Source: a virus
Virus record (IMG/VR): IMGVR_UViG_3300027849_000015
Coordinates: 1 to 47,503 of that record
Length of the DNA stretch: 47,503 nt
Strand: one strand, 5' to 3'
The translations under genes were made by a program, and so were the position numbers. Every line of letters starts with the position of its first letter. The stretch's first letter is position 1. The notes beneath the pieces are model-generated. The model was not told the origin of the DNA. It did no database searches and saw only the letters and a list, made by a program, of their open reading frames with translations. Shown here piece after piece: positions 12,400-46,859 of the stretch.

Positions 12400-12881
12400 A
12401 TTTTCTTCCTAGTATTAGGGACTCTATCATTAATTAAATTAAATAACAAGTGCCTATTGCCCATTTTAACTACTTGAGCGTATTTATAATTGCCTTGAGA
12501 TACTATAAATTTAGTAGACAAGCCCTTGACCTCAATACCCCAACTGCCAGTAGGAGTTCTCCAGTTACTAATAATAGGTAAGCATTGTACTTCATAAAAT
12601 TTAGTAGGCTTCCAAGTAACTACTCCGCCCGTAGAGTCAATAAACTTGCGGCATTTAGTATTTATTAACTGGCTTAGATTTTCTATTCTTTTATTTATAG
12701 GATATAGATCATACGGTAAAATAATACTAAGTAAGTCCATTCTTCTTTCAGAATATTTATTAGCCCAAGGAAGAATAGTGTCTAACACATACTTATTAGT
12801 ATGTGTTATAATTATCTTATAAACACCCTCTTCTGTGATGTTTACATATTTACGCATCTCATAGAGGGGGAAGTTAATCAC
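12396..12881 (-). CDS. Unknown protein between polymerase and helicase
   Basis: A 161-residue protein with a basic C-terminus (RVPNTRKKI). The GTG at 12881 overlaps the polymerase stop as GTGA; an ATG at 12857 (MRKYVNITEEG) is an alternative start. It contains VTWKPTKFYEVQCLP and GSWGIEVKG, suggesting a compact alpha/beta fold. Its position between the polymerase and the helicase suggests a replication accessory role. No family recognised. Confidence 0.75.
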   Translation of the reverse strand: MINFPLYEMRKYVNITEEGVYKIIITHTNKYVLDTILPWANKYSERRMDLLSIILPYDLYPINKRIENLSQLINTKCRKFIDSTGGVVTWKPTKFYEVQCLPIISNWRTPTGSWGIEVKGLSTKFIVSQGNYKYAQVVKMGNRHLLFNLINDRVPNTRKKI

Positions 12882-15238
12882 GACACAGCCGCAAGATCTG
12901 GGAACATTTTATCAAGCTTACCACAAGAGTAATCCCTAGAACCACCAATTTCTGAGTCTTGCTCTATACCAACTGGAGTGTTAGGAATAGAACAGCCTCT
13001 TGGCTTCTGGATGTGTCTGCAAAGAATTTCTAAGTATTCATCTACTAGATCTTCTCTAACCAAAGCTACAACACTATCGTGTACTAACGCAAAGATTTCA
13101 ACATCTAGGTTTTTCTCAAGAATTTCAGTATCTGCACCAACAGCGCCCATTAATAGATGATCTGAACTAACAGACTGAATTATTGCATTAAAACCTGATC
13201 TAACCTCACCAGCAGCAATACCTCTATCAGAAGAATTGATGTTATGCAGTCTACGTTTACGACCAAAGTGATTATAAATAAATCCTTGTGATTTAATTTC
13301 TTGATGACAATTATCAATCCAACGCTTAAGTTTCTTAAACTTATTAAAATAAGTAGTAATATATTCTTTAGCATCATCAGCAGTACAACTAGCCAACTGA
13401 CCTACTTCTAAAAAGGCTTCATTAACCGCTTCTGCAACTTTCTTAGGACCAGAGCCGTATAAAATACCGAACGAGATAGCTTTTGCTGCTTGTCGAAGTG
13501 CTGGGTATAGCTTTTTAACTTCTGCAGGCTCACATGCCATACCAAATACCATATGTGCAATGTTACTATGGAAATCTGGATATTTATCAGGATCTCTAGT
13601 CATGTTGATAAATACTTGTTGCATAGCTTTATCTCCCGACAATACCGCAGCATAATAAATCTCAGCTGTTGTTAAATCGGCAGCAACTATTTTATACCCT
13701 GGAGGAGCAACAACACAACCTTTAATTATTGGATTATCTCTAGGTAGTTGTTGCATATTAAATTTACCAGAAGAACTAAGTCTGCCAGAAGTAGTAGAAG
13801 TCAAGTTAAAACCTGTACGTACTTTTTGATCTTTATCAATAACTGGCAACAGTTTATCAATGTATGTGGAAATTAATTTGGTTTTCTGTCTAATATCTAG
13901 TATTAGTTTAGGCACGTGATTAATCTCACCTAATTCTTTAAGAACCTCAGAATCTGTAGATATTGCGCCTGTACCCGTAATTTTACCTGTAGGAGCTAAC
14001 CCTATGTAATCAAACAATAATTTACGTAATTGTGGTACTGAATTAGGATTAAATACTTCACCCTGATCTTGTTCTAATTGAGATATTTCTGGTACTTCAT
14101 ACAACTTAGTTTTTAAGTCCATAAGCTCTAGGGATAATAACTCTTTTGCAACTTCTAGGCGGTTTCTATTAATAGGAATACCTCTAGCTTCCATTTTAGT
14201 TAAGAAATGTAGTGCTGGTAGCATCATATCGTTGTAACAATCTAATAGTTTTTTATTCTTTTGTAAAATAGGATAAAACTTGTAATATAACTGTAAAGTA
14301 GCATCTGTATCTTTTGCTGCATATAACTTTATAATGTCCCACGGAATTAGATCATAAGAGAAGTCTCCCACTTTCATACCATGAGTTTTACAGTATTGTC
14401 TTTTAAACTCATCCAACTCTCTATCGTAATCACCTAAAGTACCATACTTCATAGTTAAAGATTTTAAGCCGTGAGTACCTTGACGTTCATCTAATAAATA
14501 ATGAATAATCATAGTATCGTGTATATCTCTACCTATAAATTCAATATTAAAATGGTAGGTTAAAAAGTGCATGTCGAACTTAGCGTTATGTAGTACTATA
14601 CGTCTTGTATCTACTATTTTCTGCATTAAGTCAATACATTCTTGGTCAAAAGCATCAGCATCCATATAAACACCTTGATCAACTCTGTGTGACATAGAAA
14701 CGCCTAAGATAAAACCATCTCTAGCAGCTAACGCGCTAGTTTCTGTATCTAGACCAATAACATCATACTTTTCTGTTTTATATACTTTATTTAGATACGC
14801 CTTGATACTTTCTGTTTCTTTGAAAAACTCATAGTGTCTTGGTATTTCTTCTACTTGTTTTTCCATAATGACAGCATGTATGCTTTGTACTGTTTGGTCA
14901 AATACAGGTTTGTTTTCTGGTTTAAAGGCTAACATAGCAGGGCTAATACTTGCTATAAACTTAACACCTTCAAACTCTGGTTTAGGTGGAGTTAACTTAC
15001 CAGAATAATCAGTTACAGCAGTAGCTTTTGTAAACATTTTTAATGCTTCAGATCCTACCAATATTACGTAGTCATAGTTTTCGGGTATAAAATCTACTCC
15101 AATTTTTAAATCTACATCACGCTTTAGTAACCTATCAACTTTTTTGCTTGATAGGTTATATATAGTTAAGTCTGAAAGATTATACTGTCTTTCATATTTA
15201 ATATTACTTGGCATTTTCTGCACTACTGCTATTTTCAT
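12878..15238 (-). CDS. Family-A DNA polymerase with 3'-5' exonuclease (T5 D9-like)
   Basis: The 786-residue replicative polymerase. Exonuclease residues: D164 and E166 in GLDTETSAL, D222 in HNAKFDMHF, Y306 and D310 in YAAKDTDAT. Polymerase motif A is ADLTTAEIYYAA (D521), motif B RQAAKAISFGILYG (582-595), motif C LVHDSVVAL (D721). There is no 5' nuclease domain; the D15-like gene supplies it. Motif A has TTAE where most family members have SQIE. Residues about 56-120 resemble a degenerate uracil-DNA-glycosylase fold (VGSEALKMF, then SPAMLAF). The start overlaps the preceding gene as ATGA. Confidence 0.97.
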   Translation of the reverse strand: MKIAVVQKMPSNIKYERQYNLSDLTIYNLSSKKVDRLLKRDVDLKIGVDFIPENYDYVILVGSEALKMFTKATAVTDYSGKLTPPKPEFEGVKFIASISPAMLAFKPENKPVFDQTVQSIHAVIMEKQVEEIPRHYEFFKETESIKAYLNKVYKTEKYDVIGLDTETSALAARDGFILGVSMSHRVDQGVYMDADAFDQECIDLMQKIVDTRRIVLHNAKFDMHFLTYHFNIEFIGRDIHDTMIIHYLLDERQGTHGLKSLTMKYGTLGDYDRELDEFKRQYCKTHGMKVGDFSYDLIPWDIIKLYAAKDTDATLQLYYKFYPILQKNKKLLDCYNDMMLPALHFLTKMEARGIPINRNRLEVAKELLSLELMDLKTKLYEVPEISQLEQDQGEVFNPNSVPQLRKLLFDYIGLAPTGKITGTGAISTDSEVLKELGEINHVPKLILDIRQKTKLISTYIDKLLPVIDKDQKVRTGFNLTSTTSGRLSSSGKFNMQQLPRDNPIIKGCVVAPPGYKIVAADLTTAEIYYAAVLSGDKAMQQVFINMTRDPDKYPDFHSNIAHMVFGMACEPAEVKKLYPALRQAAKAISFGILYGSGPKKVAEAVNEAFLEVGQLASCTADDAKEYITTYFNKFKKLKRWIDNCHQEIKSQGFIYNHFGRKRRLHNINSSDRGIAAGEVRSGFNAIIQSVSSDHLLMGAVGADTEILEKNLDVEIFALVHDSVVALVREDLVDEYLEILCRHIQKPRGCSIPNTPVGIEQDSEIGGSRDYSCGKLDKMFPDLAAVS

Positions 15239-34368: not shown

Positions 34369-34450
34369 GCAGACGAACACACTCACTAAGCAAGGCGTCG
34401 CTTAGGTGGCTTGGCAATAATAGTCGGTTCGAATCCGCACCTCTGCACCA
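34369..34450 (+). tRNA. tRNA-like element with encoded CCA (unusual or degenerate)
   Basis: The 3' part looks like a tRNA: GGTTCGAATCC (T-loop box), an acceptor strand CCTCTGC pairing with 5' GCAGACG (6 of 7), then A and CCA. The inner part does not fold as a cloverleaf: CACTAAGC and GCTTAGGTG form one long interrupted hairpin with an 8-base loop, and only three T-stem pairs form. No anticodon can be assigned. A terminator follows at once. It is either a decayed tRNA or a tRNA mimic. Confidence 0.5.
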
Positions 34451-34456
34451 AAACCG

Positions 34457-34559: not shown

Positions 34560-35306
34560 ATGAATATTTTTTTGTTAGATGACGACATACAAAAATGTGC
34601 AGAATATCATTGTGATAAGCACATAGTAAAAATGCCTATCGAATACGCACAACTTATTAGTGCTGTATTAGTACCTTATGGCCTTGAAGCACCATATAAA
34701 GAGACACATAAAAATCACCCTTGTGCTGTGTGGGCTCGCGCTCATGCAGATAACTATACTTGGCTGTACGACCTAGCTATAGCTACTGGGGCTGAGTACA
34801 CCCATAGATATGGTAAAATACATAAATCCACGGCAGTATTAGACACCGTCCCTAGAGTCATATCAGGAATGCCTGCTGGTAGTTCACCACCCCCTAACTG
34901 CACCACAATCAAAACAGGATATTCTCTTGTAGATTCTTATCGTTTATATTATATGCGCGACAAAGCTCGTATGTTGACTTTCAAAAACAGACCAGAACCA
35001 CCGTGGATGCACGACAGATACTACCTTGAACAGTTAGACATACTCGGACCTCTTGTTATAGAAGTCAAACCACCTAGGGTTACTAAAGCTGACTTACTAG
35101 AAAAATGTAAAATTAAAGGAGTTTCCAAGTTACTACTCAAAGACATTCAAAAGTTACTATTAATAACTGAGTTTCCTGAGCTAGTCCTACCCGACAGTAG
35201 GTTAAAAGCTCCGTACATAGCTGAGTTACAAAAAATTGCTAGCAGTGTAGATTGGTCTAAGCTGACTATCAAAGAAATGTCAGAAGTAATTACAAGCTTA
35301 CATTAA
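34560..35306 (+). CDS. Conserved phage protein with a C-terminal RLKxPYI domain
   Basis: A 248-residue protein. Residues 1-155 match a protein widespread in phages, with invariant-looking stretches FLLDDDIQKCAEYHCDKHIV, NHPCAVWARAHADNYTWL, YTHRYGKIHKS and DSYRLYYMRDKARML; its function is, to my knowledge, unknown. His, Cys and Asp residues in the N-terminus could bind metal. Residues about 175-247 form a separate domain (TKADLLEKCKIKG, LPDSRLKAPYIAEL, WSKLTIKEMSEVI) that recurs in the proteins at 41529 and 45229. It has its own promoter. Confidence 0.8.
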   Translation: MNIFLLDDDIQKCAEYHCDKHIVKMPIEYAQLISAVLVPYGLEAPYKETHKNHPCAVWARAHADNYTWLYDLAIATGAEYTHRYGKIHKSTAVLDTVPRVISGMPAGSSPPPNCTTIKTGYSLVDSYRLYYMRDKARMLTFKNRPEPPWMHDRYYLEQLDILGPLVIEVKPPRVTKADLLEKCKIKGVSKLLLKDIQKLLLITEFPELVLPDSRLKAPYIAELQKIASSVDWSKLTIKEMSEVITSLH

Positions 35307-35396
35307 TAAAAATAACGTAGATGATATTGCTACTTTATCTTTATTAGGAAGAGGCAGATACCCTTGGCGAAGATGGTAAATTATTTTAAAAATCCC

Positions 35397-35425
35397 TTGC
35401 TTTGTACTAAAATTATTGATATAAT
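35397..35425 (+). promoter_or_regulatory. Promoter for the 35.4-36.0 kb non-coding RNA
   Basis: TTGCTT (35397-35402), 17 bases, TATAAT (35420-35425). No gene follows for 620 bases. Confidence 0.85.
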
Positions 35426-35873
35426 AGTTTTAGAGATTTGACAAATAACATAGTTTCTAAGCTGCTTAGGTTCTTCACTTAATCAAGCAGCTCCCGAGTC
35501 TACACTAAATAGTACTCCAACTGTTGTAGACCCCGAGTTATTACCGAGGGTAGGGTTATTAAGCGAAGTAATACGGCCGAGTAAGGATTTGCTACAGTCC
35601 TTGTCGTTATGACTGAAAAAAAGAACCAAGAGCATGGATTGCCAGTCAGCGCAATTAAAGATTAACTGATACAGGTAGTGTGATTCTTCCAGCCCTTACT
35701 AGTCGGGTTTAAAATAACTAGCGTGCTGATGAGAGGTCAGCATACTTTTATCTGAAAACTTTTTAGCATACACTTTACCAGAACCAGTACCAAAAGCAAC
35801 GCCCAAATAATGGGAGGTCTAGAAATGGTTCGACTAGTATAGGGTTGGTAGCCCTGTGGTGTATATGGATTGA

Positions 35874-35946
35874 TACGATGTGGTGTTACGGCAAGCACAG
35901 ATTCCCGCCAAGGGGGTCGGCTCAGGTTCGAGTCCTGACTTCGTAG
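35874..35946 (+). tRNA. tRNA-like domain at the 3' end of the large RNA
   Basis: Acceptor arms TACGATG and CTTCGTA pair at 6 of 7 positions. The T-arm is perfect (TCAGG, loop TTCGAGT, CCTGA). A D-arm GTGT/GCAC encloses a loop with GG. The anticodon arm is irregular: ATTCC/GGGGT with loop CGCCAAG, which would read CCA (Trp) but lacks U33. There is no encoded CCA, unlike the Ala and Thr tRNAs. More likely a tRNA mimic or decayed tRNA than a working tRNA. Confidence 0.5.
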
Positions 35947-35980
35947 AAAGTGTATGACTAAAGAGTTTACTCTTATTTAT

Positions 35981-36015
35981 AAAAGCCTATTGTTAAAATT
36001 AGCAGTAGGCTTTTT
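35981..36015 (+). terminator. Rho-independent terminator of the large RNA
   Basis: AAAAGCCTA and TAGGCTTTTT arms with an internal TTG/CAG pairing and an A/T-rich loop, ending in a T-run. Confidence 0.85.
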
Positions 36016-36046
36016 ACGCGTTTAAATATTAAAGGAGAATTATATA

Positions 36047-36307
36047 ATGCCAACAATTACTAAAAACACAACAGATACTTTCGTAAAATGGGCTGAAATA
36101 CCTGCAGCCTCTAATTTGTTTATACAGAATCGAGGTTCCGCTGTTTTGGAACTATTCATAGGAGCAACCGCACCTGCAGCAGGAGACGTGGGAATATTAT
36201 TACAAGCAAATGATATAGGAATACAAATACAGCTAGGGACTGGAGAAGAAGTCTATATTAAGGATACTGATGTTTCAAGACCAACTATTGTCGTAGCGGT
36301 AGTTTAA
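36047..36307 (+). CDS. Small beta-rich protein, possible virion or surface protein
   Basis: An 86-residue protein behind AAAGGAGAATTATATA. It looks all-beta (FVKWAEIPAASNLFIQNRG, GTGEEVYIKDTDVSRPTIV) with alternating hydrophobic residues, and resembles small phage structural or decoration-type proteins in general character. It starts a five-gene same-strand cluster (36.0-41.1 kb). No family recognised. Confidence 0.7.
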   Translation: MPTITKNTTDTFVKWAEIPAASNLFIQNRGSAVLELFIGATAPAAGDVGILLQANDIGIQIQLGTGEEVYIKDTDVSRPTIVVAVV

Positions 36308-36308
36308 T

Positions 36309-36998
36309 ATGGCAATAATACTACCCCTAAGACAAACACTTCGTAGTATGTTAAAGGTTTCTCCTTTAAAATACTATTTTAGGAAATTAGTAAAGAAGTA
36401 TTTTGTAAAGCTAGACCCTGTACTTAATTCATATTATGAAATGGCAGCGCCCATTACATTTTCGGGTGATTTTGAAATTGAAGTTGAGTTTAGTACGACA
36501 AATACAAACAACCAAATATTACTAGGGGACAACCATACAACGTCAATGTATTTTAATATAGATAGTAATACTATTAATGTCCATATGGGAGGTGCATATG
36601 AACGCGCCTTTGCATTTAGCCCAGTAACATTGCATGACGGCAAATTACACAAGGTAAAATATAAATTAACAGGTGCATCTTTAGAGGTTTTTTTAGACGG
36701 TACTTCTTTAGGTTCTCAAACAGTTACAACTTATACGGGAGCTAATAACTTCAGGATAGGTAACTCTAACTCTGCTAATTATCCTTTTGATGGCATAATA
36801 GCCAACGCTAAATTTACAGACAAATCGGGGGCAAGTGACGTTGTGACAACTTTTAAACTAGACAACAGCCCCGCCAATAATTATACGTATAGCACAGAAA
36901 TTTTAAACAACAATACTTTTACTGATAGTGCTAACGCTAGGCAGTATTTAATTGCTACGAAAGGTTGGATTATTACAGATGGAGGAGCAGCACCATGA
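36309..36998 (+). CDS. LamG/concanavalin-like surface protein
   Basis: A 229-residue protein. Residues about 45-170 form a jelly-roll lectin fold: ITFSGDFEIEVEFSTTNTNN, LHDGKLHKVKYKLTGASLEVFLDG, and FDGIIANAKFTD, the usual LamG strands. The first 40 residues are basic and lack a signal peptide. A glycan-binding role, as a tail-fibre or surface protein, is likely. It overlaps the next gene by ATGA. Confidence 0.75.
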   Translation: MAIILPLRQTLRSMLKVSPLKYYFRKLVKKYFVKLDPVLNSYYEMAAPITFSGDFEIEVEFSTTNTNNQILLGDNHTTSMYFNIDSNTINVHMGGAYERAFAFSPVTLHDGKLHKVKYKLTGASLEVFLDGTSLGSQTVTTYTGANNFRIGNSNSANYPFDGIIANAKFTDKSGASDVVTTFKLDNSPANNYTYSTEILNNNTFTDSANARQYLIATKGWIITDGGAAP

Positions 36999-37177
36999 TA
37001 ACTAAATTAGCAGGCTATTATTCAATTGGTGGTAATCCCGTCATAGTTGATGACGGGCTAGAAGTTTCTTTTTCAGATGATAAAGAATTGATTGTATACG
37101 CTACAGAAGCAGAGTTTTTAGAAGCGTTTCCAGAGCCAGAACCAGAGCCAGAAGAATTAGAAGAGGATGATATATAA
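36995..37177 (+). CDS. Small protein with an acidic tail
   Basis: A 60-residue protein (MITKLAGYYSIGGNPVIVDD) ending in a proline-glutamate tail (PEPEPEPEELEEDDI). Its ATG overlaps the LamG stop, and its own stop overlaps the start of the LRR gene, so the three are translationally coupled. Possibly an accessory or chaperone-like protein for the large neighbours. Confidence 0.75.
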   Translation: MITKLAGYYSIGGNPVIVDDGLEVSFSDDKELIVYATEAEFLEAFPEPEPEPEELEEDDI

Positions 37178-40100
37178 TGTCATTTATATTTAAAATAACT
37201 ACAACAACGTCTCCGCAAACTTTTGTTATACCTTGCGTTGCGGGGGGAACTTTTAACGCAACAGTTGACTATGGAGATGGAACAGGTTCACAAACTGTTA
37301 CAGCCTATAATGATGCCAATTTAACGCATTCATTTGCTACAGCAGGGCAGCACACAATAACTATTGACGGTACTTTCCCAAATGTTAGGTTTAATAATAA
37401 CGCATCAAGTCGAGACCTTGTAAACGAAGTTGTTGATCTGGGCGATGTCGGCTGGACTGATTTATATCAAGCATTTAGGAGTTGTCCAAACTTAACAACT
37501 TTTAATAGTGGCACGGCTGACACTTCAAACGTTACCAGTATGAGTTATATGTTCCTTGATTCCCCAAGTTTAACAACTTTAGATTTAAGTAATTTTGACA
37601 CTTCAAGTGTTACCAATATGAGCCTGATGTTTTATAACTGCTCAAGTTTAACAACTTTAGATTTAAGTAATTTTAATACTTCAAGTGTTACTACTTTTCA
37701 CGAAATGCTTAGAGGTTGCTCAAGTTTAACAACTTTAGATGTAAGTAATTTTAATACTTCAAGTGTTACTACTATGCATCAAATGTTTTATCTCTGCTCA
37801 AGTTTAACAGCTTTAGATTTAAGTAGCTTTGACACTTCAAGTGTTACTCGTATGAGCCTGATGTTTAATAGCTGCTCAAGTTTAACAACTTTAGATGTAA
37901 GTAATTTTAATACTTCAAACGTTACTACCATGGCGGATATGTTTAGGGATTGCTCAAGTTTAACAAATTTAGATGTTAGCAGTTTTGACACTTCAAGTGT
38001 TACTGCTATGACTTATATGTTTAGAAATTGCTCAAGTTTAACAACTTTAGATATAAGTAATTTTGACACTTCAAGTGTTATTAATATGCATCAAATGTTT
38101 ATAGGTTGCACAAGCTTAACAGCTTTAAATCTTAGCAGTTTTGACACTTCAAGTGTTACCGATATGTCGTCAATGTTTTATAACTGCTCAAGCTTAACAG
38201 CTTTAAATGTTAGCAGTTTTGACACTTCAAGTGTTACCAATATATCTCAAATGTTTAGAGGTTGCACAAGTTTAACAAGTCTAGATGTAAGTAATTTTAA
38301 CACTTCAAGTGTTACCAATATGAGCGTGATGTTTTTTAACTGCTCAAGTTTAACAACTTTAGATTTAAGTAATTTTGACACTTCAAGTGTTACTAATATG
38401 AGCCTGATGTTTTATATCTGCTCAAGTTTAACAACTCTAAATGTAAGTAATTTTAATACTTCAAGTGTTACTAATATGAGCCTGATGTTTTATAACTGCT
38501 CAAGTTTAACAACTTTAGATGTAAGTAATTTTAATACTTCAAGTGTTACTAATATGAATACTATGTTTAGAAGTTGCTCAAGTTTAACAACTTTAGATTT
38601 AAGTAGCTTTGACACTTCAAGTGTTATTAATATGCAGGAAATGTTTAGAAGTTGCTCAGGTTTAACAAGTTTAGATGTTAGTAGCTTTAATACTTCAAGC
38701 ACAACCAATATGAGATTAACATTTCTTAGTTGCACAAGCCTAACAACTTTAGATTTAAGTAATTTTAATACTTCAAGTGTTACCAATGTTTATTCTATGT
38801 TTACTAATTGCACCAACTTAACAAATTTAGACATAAAACATTTTAATATATCAAATATAACTGATGGACGGTTTTTTTTAAACAATGCTAACAACGCCTT
38901 AACCACCACACAATATGACGAGCTACTAGAAGCATGGGCCGTTCAGGACGTACAACCTAACGTGACGTGGCATTTCGGTGATGCTCAATATACTGTAGAG
39001 ACTGTTGCAGATTGGTACAGCCCTAGAAGTGCCTCATCTTTATCAATTATTGATAATAAACTTGTTAGTATTGCGGATAGCACAGCAACATTCGGAGCAG
39101 CACAGCAGGTTGATAATTTAATTATTGGTAATACTTATAAAATTGTAGGCACAGCAACTTGTAGTAATAGCTCTGCTAGTCTTTATTTTAGGGTTTCTAC
39201 AAACTCAGCACTTACCGCTAATATTCTTACGATTAGTGCTATTGGCACTGTAAAGGCTGATGCTATTTTTATAGCAACAGCAACAACCCATTATGTTGGT
39301 ATTATTTCTGCAGGCCATGCAGCCAACGACACGGTGACACTAGACGCAGGTATAACAGTCAAAAAAATCACAAACTATACACAAGCTAACTCAGCTAGTG
39401 AATTTGAATATTCACAAGAAAATGTGTTTGGAAGTAACGTGATTACTAACGGTGGTTTTGATACTGATAGCGATTGGCTCTTTACAGTACCCGAAAGTTT
39501 TTCAATAGTAAACGGAGTTTGTGAGATTAATCACGCTTCATCCCCTTGGGGCAGATTACGTCAAGACAACATACCTATAGGTAGTTATCTTATAACTTTT
39601 GATTTAGTAATAGAATCTGGAGCACTTACTGGCATATCGGGATCTGATTTACCAAATTTAAATCTAACCTCTAGTGGCAGTTACTCTTTTGTTTGTAATA
39701 CAACTTCTATATATATACATTTTGTATTTGCAGTAAATCCGACAGTAGGTTCTATAGACAATATATCATTTAAACCAATTACAAACGCCGTAATATACAA
39801 AAACATTCCACAATCAGCTCGTAATCCGTATACTCTTGAAGGTCTTAATTGGACAGGCATTGAATTGGCAAACCCTATGAGTGATTACAGTCTTGATAAT
39901 ACTATATTTACAACAGATAGTAGTGGAATTAGTGTAGACTTTACAGGCGGAAGTGCAGTTGGTACATGGCTTATAAGTTCACCACTAGAAATATACACAG
40001 ATTACAAAGTTTCAGTTAATGTTTCTGATCATACTCGGGGTGGTTTATCTGCTCGCTTAAGGACTGGGAGTACTGTTTTTTTATTGCCAGAGGGTTTAGG

Positions 40101-40755
40101 TGTAAATAGTGCAATTATAAAAAGTGGTGGCGGTGGTAGTACCACTATACGAACTAGAACAAACTCACCAGTAGAACTAACATATAATAGTGTATCAGTT
40201 AAAGAAGTGATCGAGGTAACAGAGCAAGCGGCATTTTCACCCGTAACTAGCCTTATGTCATTAACAGCGGCTTGGACTACTAGAGGTACTGGTTATTCAA
40301 CATTAAGTAATACCACTGCCTCAAGTGTTCGTGTAGATGCTAAGATTAGCAATACAGATGACGGAATTTTAATGGAGGCGGGGGCTAGTACTTTAGGTCT
40401 GATATTATACGTTTATAATGGGGTTTTGTATTTTCAGTGTGGGGATGGTACCGCATACGGAACAGCTAATAACAGAGCAGAAGTATCTTATACATTACCT
40501 GTGGGTGAGTCTGATTATATTATAGAATGCTCTGCCGATACTTCCAACGCTGTTTTATATGTCAATGGCCTAGTAGTAGGTTCACAGACTTTTAGCGAAG
40601 CATTTGTAGGAGGGACTAACGATGGCACGGTAGGCCAGGTAGAATTTGCCGCTGCAGTTAATCGAGGCGGTTGGATAGTTGACGGCTCAGGGTTATACAC
40701 TAACACTATAACCAAATGTGATATATTCAATAACCAAGTAACCGCGGACGTATAA
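37177..40755 (+). CDS. BspA-type leucine-rich-repeat (DUF285) surface protein with C-terminal lectin-like domain
   Basis: A 1192-residue protein. Residues 1-105 form the usual BspA lead-in (YGDGTGSQTV, then HSFATAGQHTITIDGTFPN). Residues about 106-570 hold 18 repeats of 26 residues (LTTLDLSNFDTSSVTNM, then MF and C). Residues about 590-960 contain beta-sandwich modules (YSPRSASSLSIIDNKLVSIA and similar). The last 150 residues look LamG-like (SSVRVDAKISNTDDGILMEAG to LYVNGLVVGSQTF). No signal peptide is seen. BspA proteins of bacteria mediate adhesion; here it may be a phage fibre or host-surface-binding protein. Confidence 0.88.
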   Translation: MSFIFKITTTTSPQTFVIPCVAGGTFNATVDYGDGTGSQTVTAYNDANLTHSFATAGQHTITIDGTFPNVRFNNNASSRDLVNEVVDLGDVGWTDLYQAFRSCPNLTTFNSGTADTSNVTSMSYMFLDSPSLTTLDLSNFDTSSVTNMSLMFYNCSSLTTLDLSNFNTSSVTTFHEMLRGCSSLTTLDVSNFNTSSVTTMHQMFYLCSSLTALDLSSFDTSSVTRMSLMFNSCSSLTTLDVSNFNTSNVTTMADMFRDCSSLTNLDVSSFDTSSVTAMTYMFRNCSSLTTLDISNFDTSSVINMHQMFIGCTSLTALNLSSFDTSSVTDMSSMFYNCSSLTALNVSSFDTSSVTNISQMFRGCTSLTSLDVSNFNTSSVTNMSVMFFNCSSLTTLDLSNFDTSSVTNMSLMFYICSSLTTLNVSNFNTSSVTNMSLMFYNCSSLTTLDVSNFNTSSVTNMNTMFRSCSSLTTLDLSSFDTSSVINMQEMFRSCSGLTSLDVSSFNTSSTTNMRLTFLSCTSLTTLDLSNFNTSSVTNVYSMFTNCTNLTNLDIKHFNISNITDGRFFLNNANNALTTTQYDELLEAWAVQDVQPNVTWHFGDAQYTVETVADWYSPRSASSLSIIDNKLVSIADSTATFGAAQQVDNLIIGNTYKIVGTATCSNSSASLYFRVSTNSALTANILTISAIGTVKADAIFIATATTHYVGIISAGHAANDTVTLDAGITVKKITNYTQANSASEFEYSQENVFGSNVITNGGFDTDSDWLFTVPESFSIVNGVCEINHASSPWGRLRQDNIPIGSYLITFDLVIESGALTGISGSDLPNLNLTSSGSYSFVCNTTSIYIHFVFAVNPTVGSIDNISFKPITNAVIYKNIPQSARNPYTLEGLNWTGIELANPMSDYSLDNTIFTTDSSGISVDFTGGSAVGTWLISSPLEIYTDYKVSVNVSDHTRGGLSARLRTGSTVFLLPEGLGVNSAIIKSGGGGSTTIRTRTNSPVELTYNSVSVKEVIEVTEQAAFSPVTSLMSLTAAWTTRGTGYSTLSNTTASSVRVDAKISNTDDGILMEAGASTLGLILYVYNGVLYFQCGDGTAYGTANNRAEVSYTLPVGESDYIIECSADTSNAVLYVNGLVVGSQTFSEAFVGGTNDGTVGQVEFAAAVNRGGWIVDGSGLYTNTITKCDIFNNQVTADV
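37492..38880 (+). repeat. Eighteen 78-bp in-frame repeats encoding LRR units
   Basis: Each unit begins TTAACAACTTTAGAT or close to it. The phase is exact: 17 steps of 78 bp lead from 37492 to 38818. Units 11-14 are the most alike, pointing to recent expansion there. Confidence 0.92.
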
Positions 40756-41528: not shown

Positions 41529-41834
41529 ATGGGTGATAGATTTTATCAGCAGCAATACGGTACAACTATGGGAGCGCTGGCAGAGCCATTGCGACCTACT
41601 AAATCTTTAACCAAAGCAGAGTTAGTCTTAATCCCTGGTACTGAAAAGTTATTAGTAAAAGATTTACACAGATTGCGTCTAGTTAACCTAGATTTTGTTA
41701 GCCTAGAGCTACCTACGGGCAGGCTCAAAGCACCCTACATTGCACAGTGTAAAAAGATTGACCCAGAAATTAATTGGTCAAAGCTGACAGTTGCAAATTT
41801 AAAAGAAGTAATTACACAAGTTTCGGGGATATAG
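41529..41834 (+). CDS. RLKxPYI-domain protein
   Basis: A 101-residue protein consisting of a short lead and the domain shared with the proteins at 34560 and 45229: TKAELVLIPGTEKLL, LPTGRLKAPYIAQC, NWSKLTVANLKEVITQ. The stop TAG lies inside the tRNA-Ala acceptor/D region, so the gene and tRNA overlap by 10 bases. The ribosome site GAGG precedes the ATG. The function of the domain is unknown; a small helical DNA-binding fold (SAP-like) is one guess. Confidence 0.75.
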   Translation: MGDRFYQQQYGTTMGALAEPLRPTKSLTKAELVLIPGTEKLLVKDLHRLRLVNLDFVSLELPTGRLKAPYIAQCKKIDPEINWSKLTVANLKEVITQVSGI

Positions 41835-41900
41835 CTCAGTTGGGAGAGCAATTCCCTTGCACGGAATAGGTCGCTGGTTCGATCCCAGTTATCTCCACCA
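41825..41900 (+). tRNA. tRNA-Ala(TGC)
   Basis: A full cloverleaf: acceptor GGGGATA/TATCTCC (one G-T pair), D-arm GCTC/GAGC, anticodon stem ATTCC/GGAAT with loop CTTGCAC (anticodon TGC), T-arm GCTGG/CCAGT with TTCGATC, and encoded ACCA. Confidence 0.96.
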
Positions 41901-41905
41901 TATAC

Positions 41906-41981
41906 GCCTCCATAGCTCAGTTGGTAGAGCAGCTCACTTGTAATGAGCAGGTCTTAGGTTCGATTCCTGATGTGGGCACCA
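41906..41981 (+). tRNA. tRNA-Thr(TGT)
   Basis: D-arm GCTC/GAGC, anticodon stem GCTCA/TGAGC with loop CTTGTAA (anticodon TGT), T-arm TTAGG/CCTGA with TTCGATT, encoded ACCA. The acceptor stem GCCTCCA/TGTGGGC has one C-T mismatch and one T-G pair. It lies five bases after tRNA-Ala, so both are probably cut from one transcript starting at the 41117 promoter. Confidence 0.93.
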
Positions 41982-42630: not shown

Positions 42631-42659
42631 TTGCTAAACACTAAAATTATTGATATAAT
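42631..42659 (+). promoter_or_regulatory. Promoter of the lysis/ClpP unit
   Basis: TTGCTA (42631-42636), 17 bases, TATAAT (42654-42659), then AGTTTTAAGAAATAAGGAG. Confidence 0.85.
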
Positions 42660-45228: not shown

Positions 45229-45546
45229 TTGGATTCTATTGAAACGTGGGGCAAGGGTTGCCGCAGATTAAGAGGAAAGGCTTCCAAACTAGAAATTATT
45301 ACAACTATCAGCGAAGAAACTAGCACTAAGGTGTTAGATATTGGGGGTCTGACTATATCAGACTTAAATAAAATATTAAAGACAGCAAAAGAGCACACCA
45401 AGTTTTCAAAAGAAATGCCTACTGGTAGATTAAAACAACCTTATATAAAAATATTAAATAGTATATTCCCAGAGGTAACGGCTTTCGATAAACTCCCAGT
45501 AGCATCTCTACAGTCTTTACTTGGGGCATTTATATATGTGGAATAA
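45229..45546 (+). CDS. RLKxPYI-domain protein with a TTG start
   Basis: A 105-residue protein. The TTG at 45229 has AAAGGA 8 bases upstream. The N-terminus is basic (TWGKGCRRLRGKASKLE). Residues about 40-104 form the domain shared with the proteins at 34560 and 41529: TISDLNKILKT, MPTGRLKQPYIKIL, FDKLPVASLQSLLGAF. The function is unknown. Confidence 0.75.
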   Translation: MDSIETWGKGCRRLRGKASKLEIITTISEETSTKVLDIGGLTISDLNKILKTAKEHTKFSKEMPTGRLKQPYIKILNSIFPEVTAFDKLPVASLQSLLGAFIYVE

Positions 45547-46520: not shown

Positions 46521-46761
46521 GGAATATAAAGCATTACATGAACAGTACATACCCCTTAAAGCCGATCTTATAATGATAGGGGAGTTACTAGCTAATGTTG
46601 AATATGAAGAAGATCAAATAGATTGTATAGTAGAAGTAGGTAAGGAACTACTATCTGATGTGGAGTACCTAGACAGAAAGATGTTCGTTACTGAGCAGAT
46701 AATTGAGGTCTACGAACGCTATGAAGAGATGGAAGAAATGGAAAACATGCCAATGCATTAA
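46480..46761 (+). CDS. Unknown acidic helical protein
   Basis: A 93-residue protein, mostly helical and acidic (KREEYKALHEQYIPLKADL; the Glu/Met-rich end ERYEEMEEMENMPMH), so probably coiled-coil. It overlaps the previous gene by 41 bases and ends just before a terminator. Confidence 0.7.
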   Translation: MTTSWTEKLTSKREEYKALHEQYIPLKADLIMIGELLANVEYEEDQIDCIVEVGKELLSDVEYLDRKMFVTEQIIEVYERYEEMEEMENMPMH

Positions 46762-46763
46762 TT

Positions 46764-46788
46764 AAGCTGCCTTCGGGTAGCTTTTTTG
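46764..46788 (+). terminator. Rho-independent terminator with UUCG loop
   Basis: AAGCTGCC, loop TTCG, GGTAGCTT (one G-T pair), then a T-run. Confidence 0.9.
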
Positions 46789-46801
46789 CGTTTAAAATCT
46801 A

Positions 46802-46830
46802 TTGCCAAACACTTAAATTATTGTTATAAT
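46802..46830 (+). promoter_or_regulatory. Promoter for the glyA unit
   Basis: TTGCCA (46802-46807), 17 bases, TATAAT (46825-46830), then a short leader and AAGGAG. Confidence 0.88.
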
Positions 46831-46859
46831 ATGTTTAAGAAATAAAGGAGAGATCATGT

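Follow-up and report, generated by a model that had tools for sequence, protein, structure and literature searches.

A probable phage RNA gene between protein-coding genes

What is encoded by the 740 bases that separate a pyrimidine-dimer-glycosylase-like gene from a small gene at 36047 in the virus record IMGVR_UViG_3300027849_000015? The record is a 47.5-kb virus sequence, and the window analysed here is its full length (positions 1-47,503). Its assignment to a T5-like phage is well founded by sequence comparison: at the DNA polymerase (12878-15238, minus strand), identity is 57% to T5-group phages and 57-68% to environmental T5-like records. The initial annotation proposed that the intergenic stretch encodes a large structured RNA with its own promoter and terminator, no coding frame and a tRNA-like 3' domain. 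With a probability of about 0.85, we read 35397-36015 as an autonomous noncoding RNA gene of this phage that matches no Rfam 15 family. The unit is delimited by the following features:

34560-35306: pyrimidine-dimer-glycosylase-like gene (PF03013 match)
35397-35426, plus strand: T5-type sigma-70 promoter, TTGCTT-N17-TATAATA (sequence matches, promoter survey)
35432-36015, plus strand: proposed noncoding RNA, about 584 nt (promoter-to-terminator span, no ORF above 33 aa on the plus strand)
35981-36015, plus strand: intrinsic-terminator-like hairpin with a T run (folding)

The promoter region (35383-35438) shares 81% identity with that of Escherichia phage EscoHU1 (E=5e-3), and 27 of its bases are repeated exactly at 42640. 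Promoters of this type recur through the window and are recognisable in T5-group phages; transcription is expected to start near 35432. Among the matches listed, blastn of the locus against annotated phages gave promoter-sized matches only. The longest ORFs inside the locus have 33 aa on the plus strand and 53 aa on the minus strand, and the next CDS begins 620 nt past the -10 box. The window was surveyed for such promoters, leaving aside a few weaker matches to the pattern that fell inside genes: every other canonical one on the plus strand has a CDS with a ribosome-binding site 26-50 nt away. The promoter at 35397 is the sole canonical one on this strand with no CDS nearby, which supports its reading as the start of an RNA gene. 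Promoter, terminator and absence of an ORF, as expected of an autonomous noncoding RNA, were thus all found here as the initial annotation had described them.

A T5-type promoter followed by a long CDS-free stretch is an uncommon arrangement, though the window has another instance. On the minus strand, a pair of T5-type promoters in tandem (26954 and 26867) is followed by about 365 nt in which no CDS occurs, up to an ORF of 119 aa. This stretch (26840-26473) has no Rfam match and no clear homolog, and it is not unusually structured (folding z=+1.2).

Modules shared with a second T5-like record

Two parts of the predicted RNA recur in a 106-kb T5-like record, IMGVR_UViG_3300027714_000001 (hereafter G007), in genes that we call RNA-A and RNA-B:

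35529-35637, plus strand: conserved 5' domain, common to G007 RNA-A (73% identity over 113 nt)
35638-35671, plus strand: conserved cassette, common to G007 RNA-B (33/34 nt identical)

The 5' domain matches G007 46729-46841 (E=1.4e-9) and the cassette matches G007 49183-49216 (E=2.1e-10). The two pieces adjoin exactly in the window, their counterparts lie 2.3 kb apart on the same strand of G007, and the rest of the window RNA cannot be aligned with the G007 RNA genes. RNA-A (about 46.68 kb onward) and RNA-B (48.73 kb onward) are different genes; both have a T5-type promoter of their own, and neither contains a credible ORF. Like the window RNA, they lie near tRNA genes; unlike it, they are two separate genes, and downstream of RNA-A come a good tRNA-Arg, complete with CCA, and a tRNA-Asn. 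Between them are a small protein gene and two promoter units with no convincing ORF, and downstream of RNA-B a 117-aa ORF precedes a GOLLD RNA with its own promoter (175 bits, cut-off 150). Homology to two ORF-less, promoter-bearing genes beside a true GOLLD further supports the RNA-gene reading. The simplest reading of blocks that adjoin in one phage and are separate in the other would be domain shuffling between RNA genes, and their recurrence only a few kilobases from a GOLLD gene hints that such RNAs may come in sets and exchange domains.

Positions 44000-52000 of G007 hold a whole series of T5-type promoter units in which no ORF is convincing; they start near 2684, 4055, 4470, 4735 and 5830 of the extracted stretch; the last of them is the GOLLD RNA (175 bits).

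In the 5' domain, candidate helices pair 35539-35544 with 35568-35573 and 35583-35587 with 35598-35602, the latter around an invariant GCUACA loop, and the 3' part is a conserved A-rich linker ending ACCAAGAGCAUGG. Both helices differ between the window and G007 by compensatory changes (UAUUAC/GUAAUA vs. UAUUGC/GCAAUA in the first; AAGGA/UCCUU vs. AGUGU/ACACU in the second). A possible third helix (ACCC/GGGU vs. AUCC/GGAU), which would make a pseudoknot together with the first, is offset by one alignment column. The helices were picked by eye, with one alignment gap shifted for helix 2. When the conserved columns were kept, the 33 substituted columns randomised and all helices scanned, the null simulation gave P=0.08-0.09 for two sequences only, and RNAalifold did not recover the proposed helices. 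The compensatory changes are therefore suggestive only: conservation is locally strong in one relative, but covariation is not significant with two sequences. Pairing within the cassette makes an H-type pseudoknot likely (AUUGC/GCAAU plus CAGU/ACUG), and its single substitution relative to G007 places a G-U pair where there was a G-C. A cassette so nearly identical would offer a handle for finding binding partners of these RNAs.

Scans of IMG/VR with the pseudoknot pattern retrieved G007 only, and those with the 5'-domain pattern retrieved G007 plus chance matches. The pseudoknot pattern had no match in the genome collection. Two 5'-domain pattern matches there were rejected as chance, since they lie inside long reading frames resembling cytochrome genes (one scored 22 bits with the model). 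A search anchored on nrdB found nothing. Weak model matches in other T5-like phages were at chance level by score, and those inspected had no RNA-gene context; short matches in two further records (G008 and G025) were discarded because their strand is opposite to that of the neighbouring ortholog. In these searches the 5' domain and the cassette thus have two members each, the window phage and G007, which do not prove a conserved structure.

Folding and the tRNA-like domain

Predicted elements outside the shared modules are as follows:

35458-35493, plus strand: 5' hairpin AGCUGCUU/AAGCAGCU, not conserved in G007 RNA-A (folding)
35723-35743, plus strand: local hairpin GUGCUGA/UCAGCAU (folding)
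35756-35776, plus strand: 5' arm of a 21-bp clamp helix (folding, shuffle test)
35874-35946, plus strand: degenerate tRNA-Trp-like domain with G33, a U-U acceptor mismatch, G73 and no CCA (ARAGORN, Rfam)
35947-35968, plus strand: 3' arm of the clamp helix, immediately adjoining the end of the tRNA-like domain (folding, shuffle test)

The many local hairpins noted by the initial annotation are indeed predicted, but the folding energy is not exceptional for this genome. The whole RNA has z=-3.5; a 560-nt segment of it has z=-2.6 and ranks fifth among 57 genome segments (mean of the others -1.0, sd 1.25). Because this genome-wide comparison is unexceptional, we dropped folding energy as evidence. 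What exceeds chance is the conservation in one relative together with the clamp helix, which has 21 bp and one bulge where 300 dinucleotide shuffles gave a mean of 14.7 and a maximum of 20.

The proposed tRNA-like 3' domain was recovered by ARAGORN as a tRNA-Trp(CCA) at 35874-35946. Its score against the Rfam tRNA model (RF00005) was 29.5 bits in a short search (cut-off 29), and it was absent from the whole-window gathering scan; the two intact tRNAs of the window score 65-68 bits. The U33, sound acceptor stem and encoded CCA of a decoding tRNA are all missing from it. On these features, a working tRNA is less likely than either a structural mimic or a decayed tRNA. An intron-containing tRNA was also considered and rejected, as the intron call is a poor, implausible tRNA. 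The tRNA-like fold and the clamp are compatible with each other, at about 2 kcal/mol above the unconstrained fold. The clamp starts at the base after the discriminator, and 3' processing would therefore be hindered.

The placement of the RNA between tRNA-like and true tRNA genes proved only loosely right, as the intact tRNAs (41825-41981) lie 6 kb downstream. A second degenerate tRNA-like sequence, which ends in ACCA and is followed by a strong terminator, occupies 34370-34453 and was called by neither ARAGORN nor Rfam. Further downstream of the RNA, a laminin-G-like protein (36309-36998) is followed by a 1192-aa protein with DUF285/leucine-rich (BspA-like) repeats (37177-40755); both are plausibly tail or surface proteins.

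Comparison with known RNA families

Rfam scans at gathering and at permissive E-values returned, on the RNA, only the weak tRNA match and chance-level matches. Direct covariance-model searches of the whole record found no match to the conserved 3' region of GOLLD (RF02032) and none to ROOL (RF03087); the same GOLLD model does detect the clear GOLLD of G007. We detected no tmRNA with ARAGORN or Rfam, and no Rfam group I or II intron family at E<=10. The initial annotation had left the choice between a GOLLD/ROOL relative and something undescribed; the former was not borne out by these searches, and the latter, with no match to Rfam 15 families, is the more fitting part of the guess. The sequence supports a large autonomous noncoding phage RNA whose 3' domain is tRNA-like. 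An RNA gene outside the known families is probable; with two members and non-significant covariation, it is a good candidate rather than an established new class.

Only a small number of large structured RNAs have been described from phages, and what GOLLD and ROOL do is still an open question (PMC12286853). GOLLD assembles into an RNA-only multimeric cage (PMC12286853).

Alternative explanations

A cis-acting leader or attenuator would place the same promoter and terminator in the service of the structural genes from 36047, with the hairpin at 35981-36015 controlling read-through from a long 5' leader. The terminator lies only 31 nt before the ATG at 36047, and we saw no other canonical promoter between them. 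Against a leader, RNA-A in G007 precedes tRNA genes and not structural genes of this kind; moreover, the G007 relative of the laminin-G-like gene at 36309 (25% identity) lies upstream of RNA-A. The product of the gene at 36047 has no detectable relative in G007. We consider a leader unlikely. Somewhat less probable is that the locus is the debris of a tRNA array with no function as RNA, a reading suggested by the degenerate tRNA-like sequences at 35874-35946 and at 34370-34453 and by the wealth of tRNA genes in phages of this type. It is weakened by the conservation in G007, where 109 nt (73% identical) and 34 nt (97% identical) stand within unalignable surroundings. Promoter and terminator are also intact, and ARAGORN recognises no tRNA remains in 35432-35870.

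Membership in GOLLD or ROOL, even as a diverged member, would fit its size and setting. GOLLD is a large phage RNA found near tRNAs, with tRNAs reported inside its linker region (PMC12286853), and the window RNA likewise has a degenerate tRNA-like domain inside it and intact tRNAs 6 kb away; in G007 a GOLLD lies in the same cluster as the homologous genes. ROOL is similarly large (model of 574 positions) and often near tRNA islands (PMC12286853). However, the window has no match to either covariance model, and the G007 homologs are separate genes which, like the window RNA, have no similarity to the G007 GOLLD; we regard this as the least probable of the alternatives. A decoy function is very improbable as well. 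Here the phage would be protected either by the cassette, as a mimic of type III antitoxin RNA, or by the tRNA-like domain, which would absorb a host anticodon nuclease. Such a role could account for the extreme conservation of a 34-nt pseudoknot-like cassette within otherwise diverged RNAs, and one phage is reported to escape ToxIN through an RNA mimic (PMC3475682). Against it, the cassette is single-copy with no tandem repeats, and no Rfam antitoxin family matched.

The best overall explanation is a modular noncoding RNA gene with the working mechanism outlined below, to which, taken as a whole, we give even odds. It is supported by a clamp helix beyond all 300 shuffles and compatible with the tRNA-like fold, and by the missing decoding features of that domain; it is weakened by the small membership, the non-significant covariation, the failure of RNAalifold to find the helices and the ordinary folding energy. 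The RNA would be transcribed by the host polymerase during infection and would fold into a multi-domain structure, in which the conserved 5' domain and pseudoknot might form a core that binds a protein, the ribosome or further copies of the RNA. The clamped domain could then present a tRNA elbow to host tRNA-handling enzymes with no release as a working tRNA, an action perhaps comparable to that of the other large structural RNAs found close to tRNA genes in phages. This mechanistic part, a binding core plus a clamped domain engaging such enzymes, is tentative and taken alone rather doubtful. More speculative still, T5-like phages may carry a repertoire of undescribed large domain-exchanging RNAs, some beside GOLLD at tRNA clusters, whose clamped tRNA mimics counter host tRNA-directed defences or take over tRNA-handling enzymes.

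Comparable units in cultured phages

Unannotated noncoding units also stand at the head of tRNA arrays in cultured T5-like phages of Aeromonas, the Shenzhenvirus phages (AhSzq-1 and relatives):

L210:2890-3605 and its equivalents in L211-L214: Shenzhenvirus noncoding units that head the tRNA array

They resemble the window RNA in their T5-like phage background and T5-type promoters, and differ from it in that direct sequence similarity is absent. One of them, RNA-1, has a 36-nt motif in common with G007 RNA-B (94% identity). Another, RNA-3, is a 200-nt unit for which RNAalifold predicts a 24-bp closing helix, recalling the long closing helix of the window RNA, with compensatory change at two pairs among five closely related sequences. 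Their occurrence in cultured phages makes the question testable. We found no description of these units in the literature on T5/Demerecviridae noncoding RNAs and GOLLD/ROOL, represented mainly by open-access titles and abstracts, and a prior description is possible. In the relative Akh-2, RNA-1 is much shorter.

Three window proteins (34560-35306, 41529-41834 and 45229-45546) and one of G007 (1931-2371 within the extracted stretch 44000-52000) have a common C-terminal domain with the motif LPTGRLKxPYI. The domain corresponds to phrog_4328 and to the end of phrog_624, annotated as 'DNA binding protein'. Two of these proteins sit directly upstream of RNA or tRNA genes, a placement seen in both phages.
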